From the NCBI RefSeq assembly GCF_031198435.1, contig NZ_CP133548.1, positions 3,072,001 through 3,136,000 of the forward strand: a stretch of DNA of 64,000 bases, written 5' to 3'. A program made the translations under genes and the position numbers. This DNA is from Pleionea litopenaei (GTDB taxonomy: Bacteria; Pseudomonadota; Gammaproteobacteria; Enterobacterales; Kangiellaceae). Positions 52,816 to 60,225 of this stretch are shown here, piece after piece (position 1 is the stretch's first letter; the number at the start of each line of letters is the position of its first letter). Under the pieces are notes generated by a model. It did no database searches and was not told the DNA's origin. It saw nothing but the letters and a program-made list of their open reading frames with translations.

Positions 52816-55800
52816 ATGAATACTCAAGCAGCGCGAAGAGCAATGAACCACTCTCGAATATTTCTTTTAGTGTTATGTATCTGCAGCAGTTTGCTGTGGG
52901 CTGCGACCCCTGTAAAGCTTCAACTTAAATGGGAACATGAGTTTCAGTTTGCCGGTTACTATGCTGCTCTATGGCAGGGTTATTATGAAGACGCTGGCCT
53001 TTCCGTTGAGATTATTTCTGGTGCTCGCGCTGACGGTCAACTGCTGGTGCCAACAGACAGGTTGAGAAGTGGCGAAGTGGACTTTGCCATTGGTTCGATA
53101 GAGGTGTTTTCGCAGCGCCAGCCTGGAGATGACTTTGTTATTCTGGCTCCGATCTTTCAGCGCAGTGCGATTGCTTTTTTCTCGCTGCCAGAAACTGAAT
53201 TGGATGATCTTGCGGATTTAGCCGGTAGCCGTATTGCAATGCTTAAAGGCGGCAACACTCAAGCGGAGGTAGAAGCGCTCTTTTTATCTCAAGGTTACGA
53301 TGTTTCCAAAATCACCTTTGTTGATGCGCCTGTCACCATCAATTCATTACTCGATGGCTTAGCTGATGTGATTGTGACCTATCAGATCTCGGCTGAATAC
53401 CAAGCAATGGAAAAAGGCGTGGTACTGAATCGCTTATTGCCAGCGGATTATGGCGTCGAGTTTTATGGTGACTCGATTTACACAACGCGACGCTATTTAG
53501 AACAAAATCCTCAAGTTGTCAGTAAATTCGTTGATGCATCGCTGCGTGGTTGGCATTATGCGCTGAGTCATAAGCGCGAAATCGCTGAGAAAATTTCGCG
53601 CGAATTTCCGCGATACATTTATCAATACGATGATCAGTTGGCTTACAACTACTATTTTGCTGATTCAATTGAAGAGTTAACCGGATATCCAGTATTAACG
53701 CTGGGCGAGTCGAATCCCGGTCGCTGGCAAACCATGTTGCACCAATTAATCGATGTTGGCGTAGTTGAACCCAATGTTACGATCGATGGAATGTTGTATC
53801 AGCCACAAAGCTCTAATCAGCAAGCCATTAATTTCTTATCACAAATATTGCTATTGATTGCCCTTTTAGTCTTGGTGTTTTTCTTCTGGTACCGTCGCCA
53901 TCTCTATGCAACCGTCGCGAGTATTGCGGCGCTCGCACTGGCACTTACTTATCAAGCTGAGCGTCAAATTCAGCGTGAAAATGAACAAGTTAATCGAGTG
54001 AGTGTTTTGCAAAAACTGAACTCAATCAGTGCGAACTTGAAAGGCAACTTGCAAACCAATCTAACCATGTTGCGAGGTTTTTCCGCTTTTATTTCAGCGA
54101 ATCCTGATTTAACCGAAGAGCAATTTAATAATTACGCTCGCGAGGTCTTTAAGAAAAACACCTTGATTAATAATTTTGCTGCGGCAAAAGATATGGTGGT
54201 GAATTATGTCTATCCGCTGAAAGGCAATGAAAAAGCGTTAGGGTTAGACTATCGGAAAAATCTTGACCAACGAGACCTCGCATTGCAAGTTGCCAATACT
54301 GGGCAACTTTTAGTGGTAGGGCCGGTAGAGTTGGTGCAAGGAGGAACCGCATTTATCGGCCGTGCTCCAATCTACACGGGTAGTGGTACTGAGCGCCGTT
54401 TATGGGGCATTATTTCCGCACCAATCGATGCTGAAAAGTTATTTCGTAGTTCCGGTATTCGCGATGATTACCTCGATATGGAAGTTGCCATTCGTAGTTT
54501 CGATTCCTTTGGAAACTTAGGCAAAGTATTTTGGGGAACGACGGAGGTATTCGAGGCCTCAGATGCTGAGTTAATTACCTTGAGTGTTGGTGGTGGTAGT
54601 TGGCAGATTGCTGCAAAACCTAAATTAGTGGGCGATGCATTTACTACCTCATTGTGGACCACTCGGCTTATCATTTTGGTGACGGCCCTATTTATCATTT
54701 ACTACGTGAACATTCGGTTCCGACAAGAACGCGAGAAAATTCGTTTGCAATCTGAGTTATTAGAAAGTCAGCGATTGCTAGAGAAAGTCGGCCGTACCGC
54801 AAAAGTTGGCGGTTGGAAGATCGATAGACATGGGACCCTACTGCAATGGTCTTTGCAAAGCTCACGTATTTTAAAACTGCCACAAATGAATGAAAAAACC
54901 CCAACGTTTGAAAGCATTCGATCTCGTTTTGAAGAGGAAAGTTTTAAACAACTGGAAGGATCCATTAAATACGCTCTTGAGTTTCAGCAATCCTTTGATA
55001 TTGACTTAAAGCTGATAGAAGACAAGCACTGGGTAAGAGTGATCGGTAGTCCAAGTACCGAAGATTCAGAACTGATTTTAACTGGCACTATCCAAGATGT
55101 GTCCGACAAAGTCGAAAGCTCATTGTTAATCGAGCATCAAGCTAACTATGACAGTTTAACTAACTTGCCTAACCGTGCATTGTTCAATGACCGGTTAGTA
55201 ACGGCTATTGAAAAAGCAAGTCGTCAAGAAAACAAGCTTGCCGTATTATTTATCGATTTAGATCGGTTCAAATCGATTAATGATAATTATGGTCACGATA
55301 TAGGTGATAAGTTATTAATTGCCGTTGCAAAAAATATAAGCGAGTGTGTGCGCGAGTCGGATACGGTGTCGCGCCTGAGTGGCGATGAATTTGGTGTTAT
55401 TTTAGGCGACGTGCATGAGTTTCATGAAGCATTGTCGGTGACTGAAAAGATTTTAGAAAAATTGGAAACAGCGTATCGAATTAATAATTCTACAATGTAT
55501 ACCAGTGCCAGTATCGGCATTTCAATTTACCCAAATGATGGTGTTGATGCCAAGACATTGCTGCGAAAAGCCGACCAAGCAATGTATGAAGTAAAGCGCA
55601 GCGGACGAAATGGATGGCAATTTTATACCTTAGAAATGCAACAACGATCAGAATATCGCCACTCTCTGTTGATGAAATTAATTAAGGCCGTTAATGAAGA
55701 ACACCTAGAAAGTTATTTTCAGCCGATTTATGATCTCGAACGAATGGTAATCGATAAGTGCGAAGCTTTAGCGCGTTGGCAAGTTAGTGATGGCGAATAC

Positions 55801-56430
55801 ATTCCTCCCTCAGACTTTATACCTTTGGCCGAAGAGTCGGGTTTGGTTAATCGTATTGATTTACAAATTTTTAATCAGGCGGCGTCGTTTTTAAAGCAAC
55901 AAAGTGATGCTGGTAAAGATATTGGGCTTTCTATCAATATATCGCCGCGTCTGTTCCAAACTAAGGATCATGCACTAGAACAATGGTTGAGCAGTGTGCT
56001 TGACTATCGAAAATCGATTCGTATTACGGTGGAAATGACTGAGCGATTGTTAACGGATGATAGTATTCGAGCGATAAAAGTTCTTGAAGATCTGAGAACT
56101 AAAAATATCCGCATTGCTATTGATGATTTTGGTACAGGCTATTCCTCTTTAAGTTACTTGGTTAAGTTTCCAGTCGATGTGATAAAAATCGATCGCTCTT
56201 TTGTAGAAAGAATAGGTCAAGAAAAATCGGCTGAAACCTTGGTTAAAACCATTATAGCCATGGCGAAAAAGCTCGACTTAAAAGTTATTGCAGAAGGGAT
56301 CGAAACAGAACAGCAGTTACAGTTTTTACAACAGCAAGGATGTCAATATGGCCAAGGCTATTATCTTGCCAAACCTATGAATAAACATGATTTTGAAAAG
56401 CTATTAATGAATGAGTCGTTGCTAAGTTAA
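52816..56430 (+). CDS. THI5-like sensor with CHASE, PAS-like, GGDEF and EAL domains
   Basis: The 1204-residue protein has a signal peptide (cleavage near residue 30) and a periplasmic NMT1/THI5-like solute-binding domain (32-330; LKWEHEFQFAGYYAALWQGYYEDAGL). Two close membrane helices follow (338-360, 365-380), then a CHASE1-like domain (about 410-590), another helix (616-633) and a PAS-like region (655-765). The GGDEF domain carries SGDEF (855-859), and the EAL domain is intact (EALARW 983, NISPRLF, EMTER, IDDFGTGYSSL, KIDRSFV, EGIE). It probably links a periplasmic ligand, perhaps a pyrimidine-like compound, to cyclic-di-GMP turnover. An ATG at 52843 is an alternative start. Confidence 0.88.
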   Translation: MNTQAARRAMNHSRIFLLVLCICSSLLWAATPVKLQLKWEHEFQFAGYYAALWQGYYEDAGLSVEIISGARADGQLLVPTDRLRSGEVDFAIGSIEVFSQRQPGDDFVILAPIFQRSAIAFFSLPETELDDLADLAGSRIAMLKGGNTQAEVEALFLSQGYDVSKITFVDAPVTINSLLDGLADVIVTYQISAEYQAMEKGVVLNRLLPADYGVEFYGDSIYTTRRYLEQNPQVVSKFVDASLRGWHYALSHKREIAEKISREFPRYIYQYDDQLAYNYYFADSIEELTGYPVLTLGESNPGRWQTMLHQLIDVGVVEPNVTIDGMLYQPQSSNQQAINFLSQILLLIALLVLVFFFWYRRHLYATVASIAALALALTYQAERQIQRENEQVNRVSVLQKLNSISANLKGNLQTNLTMLRGFSAFISANPDLTEEQFNNYAREVFKKNTLINNFAAAKDMVVNYVYPLKGNEKALGLDYRKNLDQRDLALQVANTGQLLVVGPVELVQGGTAFIGRAPIYTGSGTERRLWGIISAPIDAEKLFRSSGIRDDYLDMEVAIRSFDSFGNLGKVFWGTTEVFEASDAELITLSVGGGSWQIAAKPKLVGDAFTTSLWTTRLIILVTALFIIYYVNIRFRQEREKIRLQSELLESQRLLEKVGRTAKVGGWKIDRHGTLLQWSLQSSRILKLPQMNEKTPTFESIRSRFEEESFKQLEGSIKYALEFQQSFDIDLKLIEDKHWVRVIGSPSTEDSELILTGTIQDVSDKVESSLLIEHQANYDSLTNLPNRALFNDRLVTAIEKASRQENKLAVLFIDLDRFKSINDNYGHDIGDKLLIAVAKNISECVRESDTVSRLSGDEFGVILGDVHEFHEALSVTEKILEKLETAYRINNSTMYTSASIGISIYPNDGVDAKTLLRKADQAMYEVKRSGRNGWQFYTLEMQQRSEYRHSLLMKLIKAVNEEHLESYFQPIYDLERMVIDKCEALARWQVSDGEYIPPSDFIPLAEESGLVNRIDLQIFNQAASFLKQQSDAGKDIGLSINISPRLFQTKDHALEQWLSSVLDYRKSIRITVEMTERLLTDDSIRAIKVLEDLRTKNIRIAIDDFGTGYSSLSYLVKFPVDVIKIDRSFVERIGQEKSAETLVKTIIAMAKKLDLKVIAEGIETEQQLQFLQQQGCQYGQGYYLAKPMNKHDFEKLLMNESLLS

Positions 56431-57348: not shown

Positions 57349-57453
57349 GCGAGAGGGTAAGTGATCTTGGTAAGCTTAATCGGATCGGTTCTAACGCTCG
57401 CCAAAACAGTCTGTTAAGATCGCCAAAATTTATTGCACATTTAAGAGATGACT

Positions 57454-58278
57454 ATGACTAAAATTGCTGTCAACGCGTGTACCGGAAGAATGGGGCAAGC
57501 GCTTTTATATGCCATCGATCGTAACCCGCAGGTTGAGCTTACCGCTCCGCTGTTGCGACGAGGTCATAAATGGGCCGGTGAACCGGTTAATCGACAATTC
57601 CCAGAAATTAACAGCAAAATACTATTGGTTGATGATTTATCAGCTGTGGCGGATCAGGTTGATGTGCTGATTGACTTCAGTTTGCCAGACTATTCGATTG
57701 AGACGGCAAAGTTATGTGCAGAGCTAAAAATACCAATGGTGATAGGGACCACGGGTTTTAGTTATCAACAAAAACAACAATTGATTGAATTATCTAGCCA
57801 AGCCCCGATGGTGCTTGCACCCAATATGAGTGTCGGCGTCAATCTTACATTGAAAGTCTTGCAGTTAGTGGCGAAGGCCATCGGTCATGATTCTGACATT
57901 GAAATTATTGAAGCGCACCATCGGTTCAAAAAAGATTCTCCATCGGGAACGGCTCTGCGCATGGGAGAATCAATAGCGGAAGGGCTTGGAGAGGTGTTCA
58001 GTGAGCTGGCAGCCTTTGATCGCTGCGGCAAAGATGCGGTAAGAAGACCCGGCTCGATTGGCTTTTCAGCGATTCGAGCTGGAAATATTGTGGGCGAGCA
58101 TACTGCGCTGTTTGCGATGAGTGGTGAAGAAATTGAAATCACTCATAAAGCTCGCGATCGTCAGACCTTTGCTCAAGGGGCGGTCAGAGCCGCTGTTTGG
58201 GTATCAAAGCAAACCGCTGGTCATTTCGATATGGCGGATGTATTGGGCTTGGATGAATTATTTGGCGGTGTCAATTGA
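57454..58278 (+). CDS. dapB: 4-hydroxy-tetrahydrodipicolinate reductase DapB
   Basis: The 274-residue enzyme has the catalytic EAHHRFKKDSPSGTAL motif, GTTGFSYQQ and APNMSVGVN. It acts in lysine and diaminopimelate synthesis using NADPH or NADH. The dinucleotide loop reads ACTGRMG where GxxGRMG is usual, so the first glycine is alanine. Two in-frame ATGs lie 6 bases apart (57448, 57454); AAGAG at a spacing of 6 favours the second. In Pseudomonas it sits directly before carA; here an 822-base gap intervenes. Confidence 0.96.
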   Translation: MTKIAVNACTGRMGQALLYAIDRNPQVELTAPLLRRGHKWAGEPVNRQFPEINSKILLVDDLSAVADQVDVLIDFSLPDYSIETAKLCAELKIPMVIGTTGFSYQQKQQLIELSSQAPMVLAPNMSVGVNLTLKVLQLVAKAIGHDSDIEIIEAHHRFKKDSPSGTALRMGESIAEGLGEVFSELAAFDRCGKDAVRRPGSIGFSAIRAGNIVGEHTALFAMSGEEIEITHKARDRQTFAQGAVRAAVWVSKQTAGHFDMADVLGLDELFGGVN

Positions 58279-58279
58279 G

Positions 58280-58391
58280 GCTGTCAGCTGACTTGAACCC
58301 GCGAAAGATTAACAACTGTCGGTTCTAAAAAAAGAATCGTTTAAGCGATTGCTGACTAACCTTGTGAGATATCTCTCAAGGAGCTGACAGC
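58280..58391. repeat. 10-bp inverted repeat enclosing the UvrY-like box
   Basis: GCTGTCAGCT (58280-58289) is the exact reverse complement of AGCTGACAGC (58382-58391), 92 bases apart. As DNA it may be a looped operator pair; as RNA it could close a long stem at the 3' end of the dapB message. Confidence 0.5.
58363..58380. promoter_or_regulatory. UvrY/GacA/LetA-type box
   Basis: TGTGAGATATCTCTCAAG lies inside a 22-base near-palindrome (58360-58381, arms CCTTGxGAGAT / ATCTCxCAAGG). It matches the LetA consensus TNAGAAATTTCTNA at 12 of 14 positions and has the TGTnAG-N6-CT geometry of the GacA box. It is centred about 180 bases upstream of the predicted RNA start; such distal positions are known for this regulator family. 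Confidence 0.55.
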
Positions 58392-58516
58392 GAAAGTCTC
58401 AAATTGCCTACTGAAATAGGTATTGTTTTCGCTAACTCTGCCGCTAACTGTTGAATAATCAAAGAGTTACGTTTTTGAGCACCTTGTTTAATTGATGTCT
58501 AGGGTGTTTTGGGGGA

Positions 58517-58544
58517 TTGCTCGAAATTCATTTCGGAGTAATCT
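58517..58544 (+). promoter_or_regulatory. sigma-70 promoter of the Csr/Rsm-like RNA
   Basis: TTGCTC (58517-58522) and TAATCT (58539-58544) are separated by 16 bases. The start is predicted near 58551, seven bases downstream. Confidence 0.6.
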
Positions 58545-58550
58545 ACTCAC

Positions 58551-58677
58551 ATGCGGCAGGGAATGGACAGCTGCAATGGAGAAGACTTTAGGATGGTCAT
58601 CAACACGGACGTGTCAGGGACAAAAGCTTCAGGATGAAGACAGAAAGGATACCGAGGCGACGTTAGTCGCCTTTTTC
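58551..58677 (+). ncRNA. Csr/Rsm-type regulatory RNA (CsrB/RsmY/RsmZ-like)
   Basis: About 126 nt between a sigma-70 promoter and an intrinsic terminator (AGGCGAC, GTTA loop, GTCGCCT, then T-run; 58655-58677). Eight GGA triplets occur at 58560, 58565, 58578, 58591, 58607, 58618, 58632 and 58647, many as ANGGA or CAGGGA, with short complementary flanks (for example GCAG...CTGC at the 5' end). RNAs of this family sequester CsrA/RsmA, which binds ANGGA in hairpin loops. The 5' end is an estimate. No protein-coding reading of this stretch is credible. The upstream UvrY-like box supports the call. No csrA gene lies in the window, so the partner must be encoded elsewhere. Confidence 0.75.
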
Positions 58678-58845
58678 TTTTGTAGCGAATTTTTTAGTGA
58701 GATTTTTAGCGAACAAAGCCAGAGCTGCCGCTTGAACATGAGAAACGATCGTGCAAAGGGTATCGCCAAGGAAGCATTTTAAGTGGGCGATTTCCTGTAA
58801 GGCATCGACCATGGTACTTACGGAATGATGCGGGTAAATAGCCAT
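58663..58845 (-). CDS. possible 60-residue protein antisense to the RNA's 3' end
   Basis: A minus-strand ATG opens 60 codons (MAIYPHHSVSTMVDALQEIAHL...KKFATKEKGD) with ordinary codon use and a hydrophobic middle (LCTIVSHVQAAALALF). It has no Shine-Dalgarno sequence at the ATG, and its last codons run into the terminator hairpin of the plus-strand RNA. I include it as doubtful. Confidence 0.3.
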   Translation of the reverse strand: MAIYPHHSVSTMVDALQEIAHLKCFLGDTLCTIVSHVQAAALALFAKNLTKKFATKEKGD

Positions 58846-58959: not shown

Positions 58960-58989
58960 TGGACAATCCAACCGCGGATCGCTTAAAAT
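58960..58989 (+). promoter_or_regulatory. candidate carAB promoter
   Basis: TGGACA (58960-58965) and TAAAAT (58984-58989) are separated by 18 bases. Initiation about 7 bases later gives a transcript beginning A-UUUU-G, a run that can permit reiterative transcription. Confidence 0.5.
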
Positions 58990-59034
58990 ACACCGATTTT
59001 GTCCATCGCGGGCAATTTCAGTTTGAATCTTATT

Positions 59035-59070
59035 AAAAAGCGGAATCCAGGCTCTTGAATTCCGCTTTTT
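59035..59070 (+). terminator. terminator-like hairpin in the carA leader (putative attenuator)
   Basis: AAAAAGCGGAAT and ATTCCGCTTTTT form a perfect 12-bp stem with a 12-base loop, ending in five T, only 30 bases before the carA start codon. No gene upstream on this strand needs a terminator here, except the RNA, which has its own. Confidence 0.75.
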
Positions 59071-59100
59071 GTGTATCTAGAGCATTACTGGAGGTCCCTT

Positions 59101-60225
59101 TTGAGTCAACCCGCCATCCTTATCCTCGAAGACGGAACCCTGTTTCACGGTAAATCCATTGGCGCTGACGGAATAGCCGTTGGTGAAGTGGTATTTAATA
59201 CAGCTATGACAGGTTATCAGGAAATTTTAACCGATCCATCCTATGCCCAGCAGATGGTGACGTTAACTTATCCACACATTGGCAACACGGGCACCAACGA
59301 GGAAGATCAAGAGTCGACCAAAGTTTGGGCCACTGGGTTGATTATTCGTGACTTACCCTTGCTAGCCAGTAACTGGCGCAACCAACAAACACTTTCTGAC
59401 TATTTGAAGCAACGCAATGTCTTAGGCATCGCCGACATTGATACGCGCAAATTGACGAGAATTTTGCGTGAGAAAGGGGCGCTGTCTGGCACCATTATGA
59501 GTGGCGAGATTGACGAAGAGAAAGCGCTTCAGGCAGCGAAAGATTTCCCTGGGTTGAAGGGAATGGATTTGGCGAAAGTGGTCAGTCAAACAGGCTCTTC
59601 GCAATGGACCAGCTCAACTTGGGACATTGAAAAAGGCTACGGTGAACTCGCGGAGAAAAAGTTCAAAGTGGTTGCTTATGACTTTGGCGCAAAAAGCAAT
59701 ATTTTACGAATGCTGGTTGAGCGCGGCTGTGAACTTACCGTTGTCCCGGCGCAAACATCGGCCGACGATGTTTTGGCGATGCAACCCGATGGCGTTTTCT
59801 TGTCGAATGGTCCTGGCGATCCAGAGCCATGCGATTATGCAATCGCAGCGATTAAGACCTTACTAGATAAAAACATTCCTATTTTTGGTATCTGCTTGGG
59901 CCATCAATTGTTGGCTATAGCCAGCGGAGCCAAATCCATTAAGATGAAGTTTGGCCACCATGGCGCCAACCATCCTGTTAAAGATTTGGAACACGATCGT
60001 GTCATGATTACGTCGCAAAATCACGGTTTTGCGGTCGATGAAAGCACGTTACCAGACAATTTAAAAGCCACTCACGTGTCGCTGTTTGACGGCAGTTTGC
60101 AAGGCATTCATCGTACCGATAAACCCGCATTTGGGTTTCAAGGGCACCCCGAAGCGAGCCCGGGACCACACGATGCTGCGCCTTTGTTCGACCATTTTGT
60201 CGAACTTATGCAAGCCAACCGATAA
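59101..60225 (+). CDS. carA: carbamoyl-phosphate synthase small subunit
   Basis: The 374-residue glutaminase subunit has [18 protein letters not shown] at the N-terminus and a class I amidotransferase domain with nucleophile Cys in [11 protein letters not shown], a Gly-rich [13 protein letters not shown], and His/Glu of [22 protein letters not shown]. The start is TTG 59101 with GGAGG 6 bases upstream; the frame begins at GTG 59071 but that codon lacks a ribosome-binding site. It feeds ammonia to CarB for arginine and pyrimidine synthesis. Confidence 0.97.

Follow-up and report, generated by a model that had tools for sequence, protein, structure and literature searches.

The window, by which we mean the whole 64,000-nucleotide stretch of DNA that was analysed, contains dapB (57448..58278, plus strand; TIGR00036, 254 bits, cut-off 122) and carA (59101..60225, plus strand; TIGR01368, 493 bits, cut-off 307) separated by a gap of 822 bases, the carA start at about 59101 having been set by eye after a GGAGG. 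In the middle of this gap, on the plus strand and outside both neighbouring genes, lies RNA-A, a putative Csr/Rsm-type RNA of about 133 nt (58550..58682) whose 5′ end was placed from the −10 element. It is preceded by a presumed promoter (58517..58544) and, further upstream, by a GacA/UvrY box, TGTGAGATATCTCTCAAG (58363..58380), and it ends in an intrinsic terminator, GGCGACGTTAGTCGCC, with a T-rich tail (58654..58682), all on the plus strand. This is the layout of an independent intergenic gene with its own terminator, the intervening sequence suggesting independence from carA. The whole feature exceeds the interval 58517..58677 of the initial annotation, the activator box lying upstream of it. 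Two genes upstream of dapB, positions 52816-56430 encode a 1204-aa protein in which periplasmic substrate-binding-like, GGDEF-like and EAL-like parts can be recognized by eye.

Eight GGA triplets (58560, 58565, 58578, 58591, 58607, 58618, 58632 and 58647) are present in 58550-58682, six of them as ANGGA, in agreement with the initial claim of about 126 transcribed bases with eight GGA, many of them ANGGA. They form the densest such cluster of the window: counted per 126 bases on both strands, GGA reaches its maximum of 8-9 at RNA-A against 6 at the next best place, and ANGGA its maximum of 6 against 3. Among 2000 dinucleotide shuffles of the 822-base gap, 9 GGA were obtained in 6 and 6 ANGGA in 1. 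The intrinsic terminator claimed for this RNA is likewise there; its stem (58654-58673) is followed by TTTCTTTT and is kept in the alignment of related genomes of the genus.

Whether the GGA triplets fall in hairpin loops had been posed as a check, and in the predicted fold most of them are looped or unpaired. Four hairpins, all on the plus strand, carry GGA in their loops: hairpin 1 (58552..58576, −8.8 kcal/mol; GGA 58560 and 58565), hairpin 2 (58581..58602, −4.5 kcal/mol; GGA 58591), hairpin 3, ACAC-GGAC-GTGT (58603..58614; GGA 58607), and hairpin 4, CTTCAGGATGAAG (58627..58639; GGA 58632), while the AGGGAC at 58618 is unpaired in the best fold. The ensemble unpaired probabilities of the eight triplets are, in order, 0.92, 1.0, 0.46, 0.95, 0.94, 0.51, 0.94 and 0.26, so that six reach at least 0.5, with 58618 about even (0.51), and two, 58578 (0.46) and 58647 (0.26), fall below it. 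The folding energy of the whole RNA only modestly beats that of shuffled sequences (z −1.72; 14 of 200 as good), an unremarkable total that is explained by its being a chain of short hairpins.

The promoter argument is the weakest part of the first reading of RNA-A. The hexamers TTGCTC (58517-58522) and TAATCT (58539-58544) are indeed present with the 16-base spacer described, and their place is kept in the genus, but the pair is weak, agreeing by eye with the sigma-70 consensus at 6 of 12 positions, and is not listed by a consensus promoter scan; we presume that it depends on an activator. By eye in the genus alignment, a −10-like TAATCT, TAATAT or TAGTAT stands at the equivalent place, within a base, in all five genomes, and four of them have a TTG-type −35 at a 16-base spacing, where the fifth (G003) has TTCCTA.

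A candidate activator site is provided by the upstream box, the centre of which lies 178 bases upstream of the CATGCGG where RNA-A is presumed to begin. The first 14 bases of the box match the pattern TGTGAGANATCTCT without a mismatch, the sole such match in the 64-kb window, for a pattern that was itself derived from the RNA-A site and the E. coli site. In excerpts of PMC4682653, E. coli csrB and csrC are marked by UvrY boxes, and the csrB site, TGTGAGAGATCTCTTACA, is centred at −183/−182; the RNA-A box, at about −178, therefore stands at a csrB-like distance. Each of the five genus loci has a related box at the equivalent position of the alignment. Beyond the genus, a box with at most 2 mismatches occurs 100-330 bases upstream of the match to R1, a model of the 3′ core of the RNA described below, in 21 of 29 family loci, one further locus being too short to count, against 17 of 1160 shuffled regions. 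In the other eight the box has at least 3 mismatches to the pattern; one of these, L159, showed no box (5 mismatches), perhaps because the distance was taken from the wrong end of one of two tandem copies. The distance from box to R1 start is nearly constant per genus, at 195-202 bases in 15 of 18 Kangiella-like loci and 211-213 bases in three loci of the window's genus. Two Kangiella-like loci, L027 and L029, carry TGTGAGACATTGACCATT, which is, letter for letter, the Salmonella csrC box as quoted in PMC4682653.

The box pattern by itself is not rare. It is not over-represented in the window's own genome, with 10 matches against 15 for a reversed control pattern, and it gives 60 matches against 33 over the five genus genomes, so that the pairing of box and GGA cluster carries the weight. 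Among 50 distinct box places in the genus, eight have 7-12 GGA per 130 bases at 120-420 bases away, on one side, whereas the other 42, like 58 control points placed 800 bases off the boxes, have at most 6. (Places seen more than once were counted once: L168/L174, L171/L172, L180/L192, L182/L186 and L190/L194; L035 duplicates L004.) Three of the eight GGA-rich places are RNA-A itself, in its own genome, G004 and G002. Because the box scan is blind to GGA clusters, it lends fairly independent support to the presence of Csr-type RNAs.

In the window's own genome, the scan with one mismatch allowed gave 10 matches at 8 places, and besides RNA-A two of these places precede GGA-rich RNAs with terminators, here called RNA-B and RNA-C. 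RNA-B (G000:C1:1059400-1059560, approximate, minus strand; about 194 nt, 12 GGA and a terminator) is divergent from a gene for tRNA-queuosine mannosyltransferase, and its region (L168, about 1059400-1059750 of the same contig, minus strand) includes the UvrY box TGTGAGAGATATCTCACA. RNA-C (G000:C1:889200-889330, approximate, minus strand) has 8 GGA, one of them in its terminator loop, GGCGGCAGGATGCCGCC, and its region (L172, about 889200-889516 of that contig, minus strand) includes the box TGTAAGAGATGTCT. The distance from box centre to first GGA is 188, 198 and 189 bases for RNAs A, B and C, respectively, and RNAs B and C repeat the order seen in RNA-A, from UvrY-type box to GGA-rich RNA to terminator, beside other genes. 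RNA-B, looked for through the box pattern only, is seen in four of the five genus genomes, in which its motif CAGCGCTTGATGA is conserved, G004 being the remaining one; RNA-C has a DNA match in all five, over only 87 of 361 query bases in G001, and no match by DNA search in the other 35 family genomes. With these two additional box-associated RNAs, the genome appears from its sequence to have three Csr-type RNAs. Several such RNAs per genome are known from reports on Vibrio cholerae and Pseudoalteromonas, which makes three a familiar arrangement: excerpts of PMC11882849 describe three in the genome of Pseudoalteromonas fuliginea, Pf1-Pf3, with 25, 21 and 9 GGA, of which Pf2 and Pf3 were found through GGA motifs, promoters and terminators.

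The protein partners of such RNAs are encoded in the same genome, all with matches above curated cut-offs. The single CsrA, the search for which had been proposed as a check on the Csr reading, scores 90 bits to Pfam CsrA and 118 bits to NF002469, and it has L4 and R44, residues highlighted in an RNA-binding figure legend of PMC7652899. UvrY/GacA (NF007018, 344 bits, cut-off 280) is encoded next to uvrC, and BarA (NF008318) reaches 917.8 bits with a neighbouring piece, against a cut-off of 890.

Conservation in related genomes, asked of the GGA motifs at the outset, is found in both genus and family. Relatives of RNA-A were found by DNA search in G004, G001 and G003 of the same genus and by the RsmZ covariance model in G002, and protein comparison shows the RNA flanked by dapB and carA in each of the five genus genomes. 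Conserved in the genus alignment are the upstream box, the −10 region, GGA motifs, the terminator and the CTTCAGGATGAAG hairpin, whose stem is intact but for one closing pair lost in G002. Between equal ends the RNA measures 132 nt in the window's genome, 131 in G004, 128 in G003, 202 in G002 and 270 in G001, with 8, 7, 7, 14 and 21 GGA, respectively; the RNAs of G001 and G002 have extra GGA-bearing stretches in their middle.

For R1, which models 18 related 3′ cores with RNA-A among them, the RNA-A locus scores 76.1 bits and the next match in that genome 26.6 bits. Strong matches (42.7-87.3 bits, everything else scoring 31.1 or less) were obtained in 37 of 40 family genomes, 18 of these matches being to sequences used to build the model (G063 contributed its locus under a different accession); 19 of the 22 family genomes unrepresented in the model were matched. 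A strong match is absent from G020 (95% complete), G023 (75%) and G061 (55%). Two closely spaced matches each are seen in G005 (G005:C123:5327-5884) and G017 (G017:C280:742-1023), possibly through local duplication of the sponge RNA. In a sample of the order, 88 of 295 genomes match at an E-value of 1e-4 or better, R1 E-values being rough; 24 of these belong to the family, and the 64 outside it, at 30-49 bits, are possible CsrB-like genes and count as candidates only.

The neighbours of the RNA vary across the family. dapB and/or carA lies beside it in 25 of the 37 genomes with a strong match: the five of the window's genus, each of the 19 Kangiella-like genomes that match out of 20 searched, and G005, where only dapB is seen. 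At L138 only carA is seen, at a contig end, and at L141 carA is partial and more than 1.2 kb away. Neither gene is beside the RNA in 8 genomes of genera g3 and g4, among 30 R1 loci examined. The neighbour count covers 33 of the 37 matching genomes, leaving out G009, G010, G022 and G025.

The Kangiella-like genomes (genus g5, so called because stretch L134 of G063 recurs without a difference in L115, a locus of Kangiella sp. N2D-Bin_15) allow the structure to be examined in an alignment of 19 RNAs. Of their five GGA motifs, four do not vary and the other hardly does, and in the consensus structure all five are unpaired, three in hairpin loops and two in linkers. Four stem pairs have changed on both sides, and 99.3% of cells pair, a figure that falls to 37-54% when the partners are slid by 1-3 columns. 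None of 500 shuffles comes up to the alignment in covariation score, proportion of cells paired or count of stem pairs changed on both sides; since the 19 sequences are related, this tally is not a probability. By number of further pair types the alignment does not surpass the shuffles (199 of 500).

The position beside carA is unusual for such an RNA, and it is absent from the control loci. A DapB scan of named organisms, of which the best 80 of at least 587 matches were used, yielded mainly Pseudomonas, Vibrio, methylotrophs and other gammaproteobacteria, together with two Kangiella sp. MAGs, one of which (L064) is uninformative in that it ends 258 bases after dapB. Among these best 80 of at least 587, 48 named non-Kangiella loci have carA in reach downstream of dapB, with 1-5 GGA per 130 bases; 41 have 3 or fewer, 4 reach 5, and none exceeds 5, as expected if this is the different genomic home that had been proposed. 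In another Pseudoalteromonas (L121) the dapB-carA gap is 188 bases, with at most 2 GGA per 130. The best 130 bases at the same place hold 7-14 GGA in the window's genus and 5-7 in Kangiella-like genomes, and because the latter range overlaps the controls, GGA count alone is no proof, and conservation, box and structure constitute the evidence. In Pseudomonas, where dapB and carA are neighbours, Rsm RNAs sit elsewhere and rsmZ has a GacA box; csrB and csrC of E. coli and Salmonella likewise are not known to lie at dapB-carA.

Comparison with Rfam models, a check proposed at the start, placed RNA-A outside the known families. Its best Csr-class match, PrrB_RsmZ (RF00166), gives 21.0 bits (E 0.024) against a gathering threshold of 44 bits; matches to RsmY (RF00195, gathering 57 bits) in the window's genome are at most 18.4 bits, none of the seven at the RNA-A locus, and none of them has a GGA cluster. 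None of 4227 Rfam families, CsrB and CsrC included, reaches its gathering threshold in 15 loci that include RNA-A. Being below threshold, RNA-A is Csr/Rsm-type by its features and no member of RsmZ. It resembles PrrB/RsmZ in its length of about 130 nt, its GGA hairpin loops and its terminator, and its CUUCAGGAUGAAG hairpin aligns to the UCAUCAGGAUGAUGA hairpin of that model, but it has under half of the gathering score and a different home, at dapB-carA. Judged by sequence, RNA-A fits no Rfam family and would represent a new lineage within a known kind, the CsrA-titrating RNAs. Its 8 GGA compare with 22 in CsrB and 14 in CsrC as given in excerpts of PMC11882849, and the three Csr RNAs described there for P. 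fuliginea are matched in number by those of the window's genome; the main text of that paper mentions neither dapB nor carA nor Kangiella.

Over 61 genomes, RF00166 gives no match above cut-off and many weak ones, including in 5 of 14 control genomes, and weak matches were used only where the sequence was then read. Several, such as those at L013, L024 and L031, resemble ordinary terminators belonging to other genes, and that at 2702266 in the window's genome (L030) has no GGA cluster. A weak match of RNA-A to ctRNA_p42d, a plasmid antisense RNA, leans on the terminator hairpin and was discarded.

Sequence, predicted fold, conservation and box, and the presence of csrA, uvrY and barA, are established for RNA-A and its genome, and the GGA loops, their conservation, the csrB-like distance of the box and the encoded CsrA, UvrY and BarA uphold the Csr/Rsm-type reading put forward at first. 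From them we infer that RNA-A is transcribed, activated by UvrY, and able to bind and titrate CsrA, and we place a probability of roughly 0.92 on its being a CsrA-sequestering small RNA under BarA/UvrY control that acts with its sisters B and C. In the proposed mechanism, the BarA kinase would phosphorylate UvrY/GacA, which would bind the box at 58363-58380 and, some 178 bases further downstream, activate the weak promoter. The resulting transcript of about 130 nt would stop at the 58654-58673 terminator, before carA and distinct from it; carA would be served by its own promoter-like site. The hairpin-loop GGA motifs are predicted to bind CsrA dimers, causing free CsrA to fall and CsrA-repressed mRNAs to be released. 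RNA-B and RNA-C, each with its own UvrY-type box, would contribute to the same sequestration.

An extended version of this proposal, which we consider unlikely, assigns one transcript two roles, as global CsrA sponge and as local regulator of carA, with read-through or promoter competition linking BarA/UvrY signalling to carAB expression. On this view the home is no accident: that the sponge has been kept at dapB-carA across two divergent genera while its GGA number drifted from 5 to 21 would point toward a local role as well.

A rival reading, of very low probability, is that the RNA is a cis-acting carAB leader, i.e. the 5′ end of the carA mRNA, with its terminator serving as an attenuator. 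In 24 of the 37 strongly matching family genomes carA does follow the RNA on its own strand, but RNA-A and carA are separated by a promoter-like site (58960-58989) and by a further hairpin, both conserved. At 8 of 30 R1 loci neither dapB nor carA adjoins the RNA, which in two of these lies next to a carbonic anhydrase gene (L153) and to priA (L151), respectively. RNAs B and C, with the same box-RNA-terminator layout, also adjoin other genes. In the carA leader proper (58960-59071), TGGACA-18-TAAAAT resembles a promoter and a hairpin, AAAAAGCGGAATCC...GAATTCCGCTTTTTGTG, immediately precedes the ribosome site; both are almost unchanged in all five genus genomes, and from its sequence this hairpin looks like an attenuator of carAB.

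Slightly less probable again is a base-pairing sRNA of the PhrS kind in which GGA richness is incidental. PhrS scores 21.1 bits at 58562-58681, about equal to RsmZ, but the match leans on the terminator, skips some 80 model positions and is far below gathering (37), while the GGA motifs are among the invariant unpaired columns in relatives and UvrY boxes are, in excerpts of PMC4682653, a mark of csrB and csrC in E. coli. A short coding gene is least credible of all: the TTG-started frame 58492-58782 (96 aa) is open, but it runs through the terminator, and related loci (132, 131, 128, 202 and 270 nt) differ by whole hairpins and by frame-shifting indels.

The preferred reading, of RNA-A as a CsrA sponge, would extend the BarA/UvrY-CsrA circuit, with three box-associated RNAs in one genome, to a family for which no such RNA appears among the literature matches listed on Kangiella with CsrA, small RNA or GacA and on Csr with dapB or carA; the one co-mention of Kangiella and CsrA among them is, by its title, a Legionella work. 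It also suggests a practical route, UvrY box scan followed by GGA density, for finding Csr-type RNAs missed by Rfam. The RNAs at the dapB-carA place constitute a natural valency series, from 5-6 GGA (Kangiella-like) through 8 (window) and 14 (G002) to 21 (G001), as in loci L004, L010, L002 and L131, with which the number of CsrA sites required in a sponge can be explored. The Kangiella-like loci L007, L009 and L026 (genus g5) carry a second GGA-rich RNA, in which TCAGGAWGA hairpins are numerous; at L007 it is flanked by a glutaminase gene on one side and a SpoU-type methyltransferase-like gene on the other.
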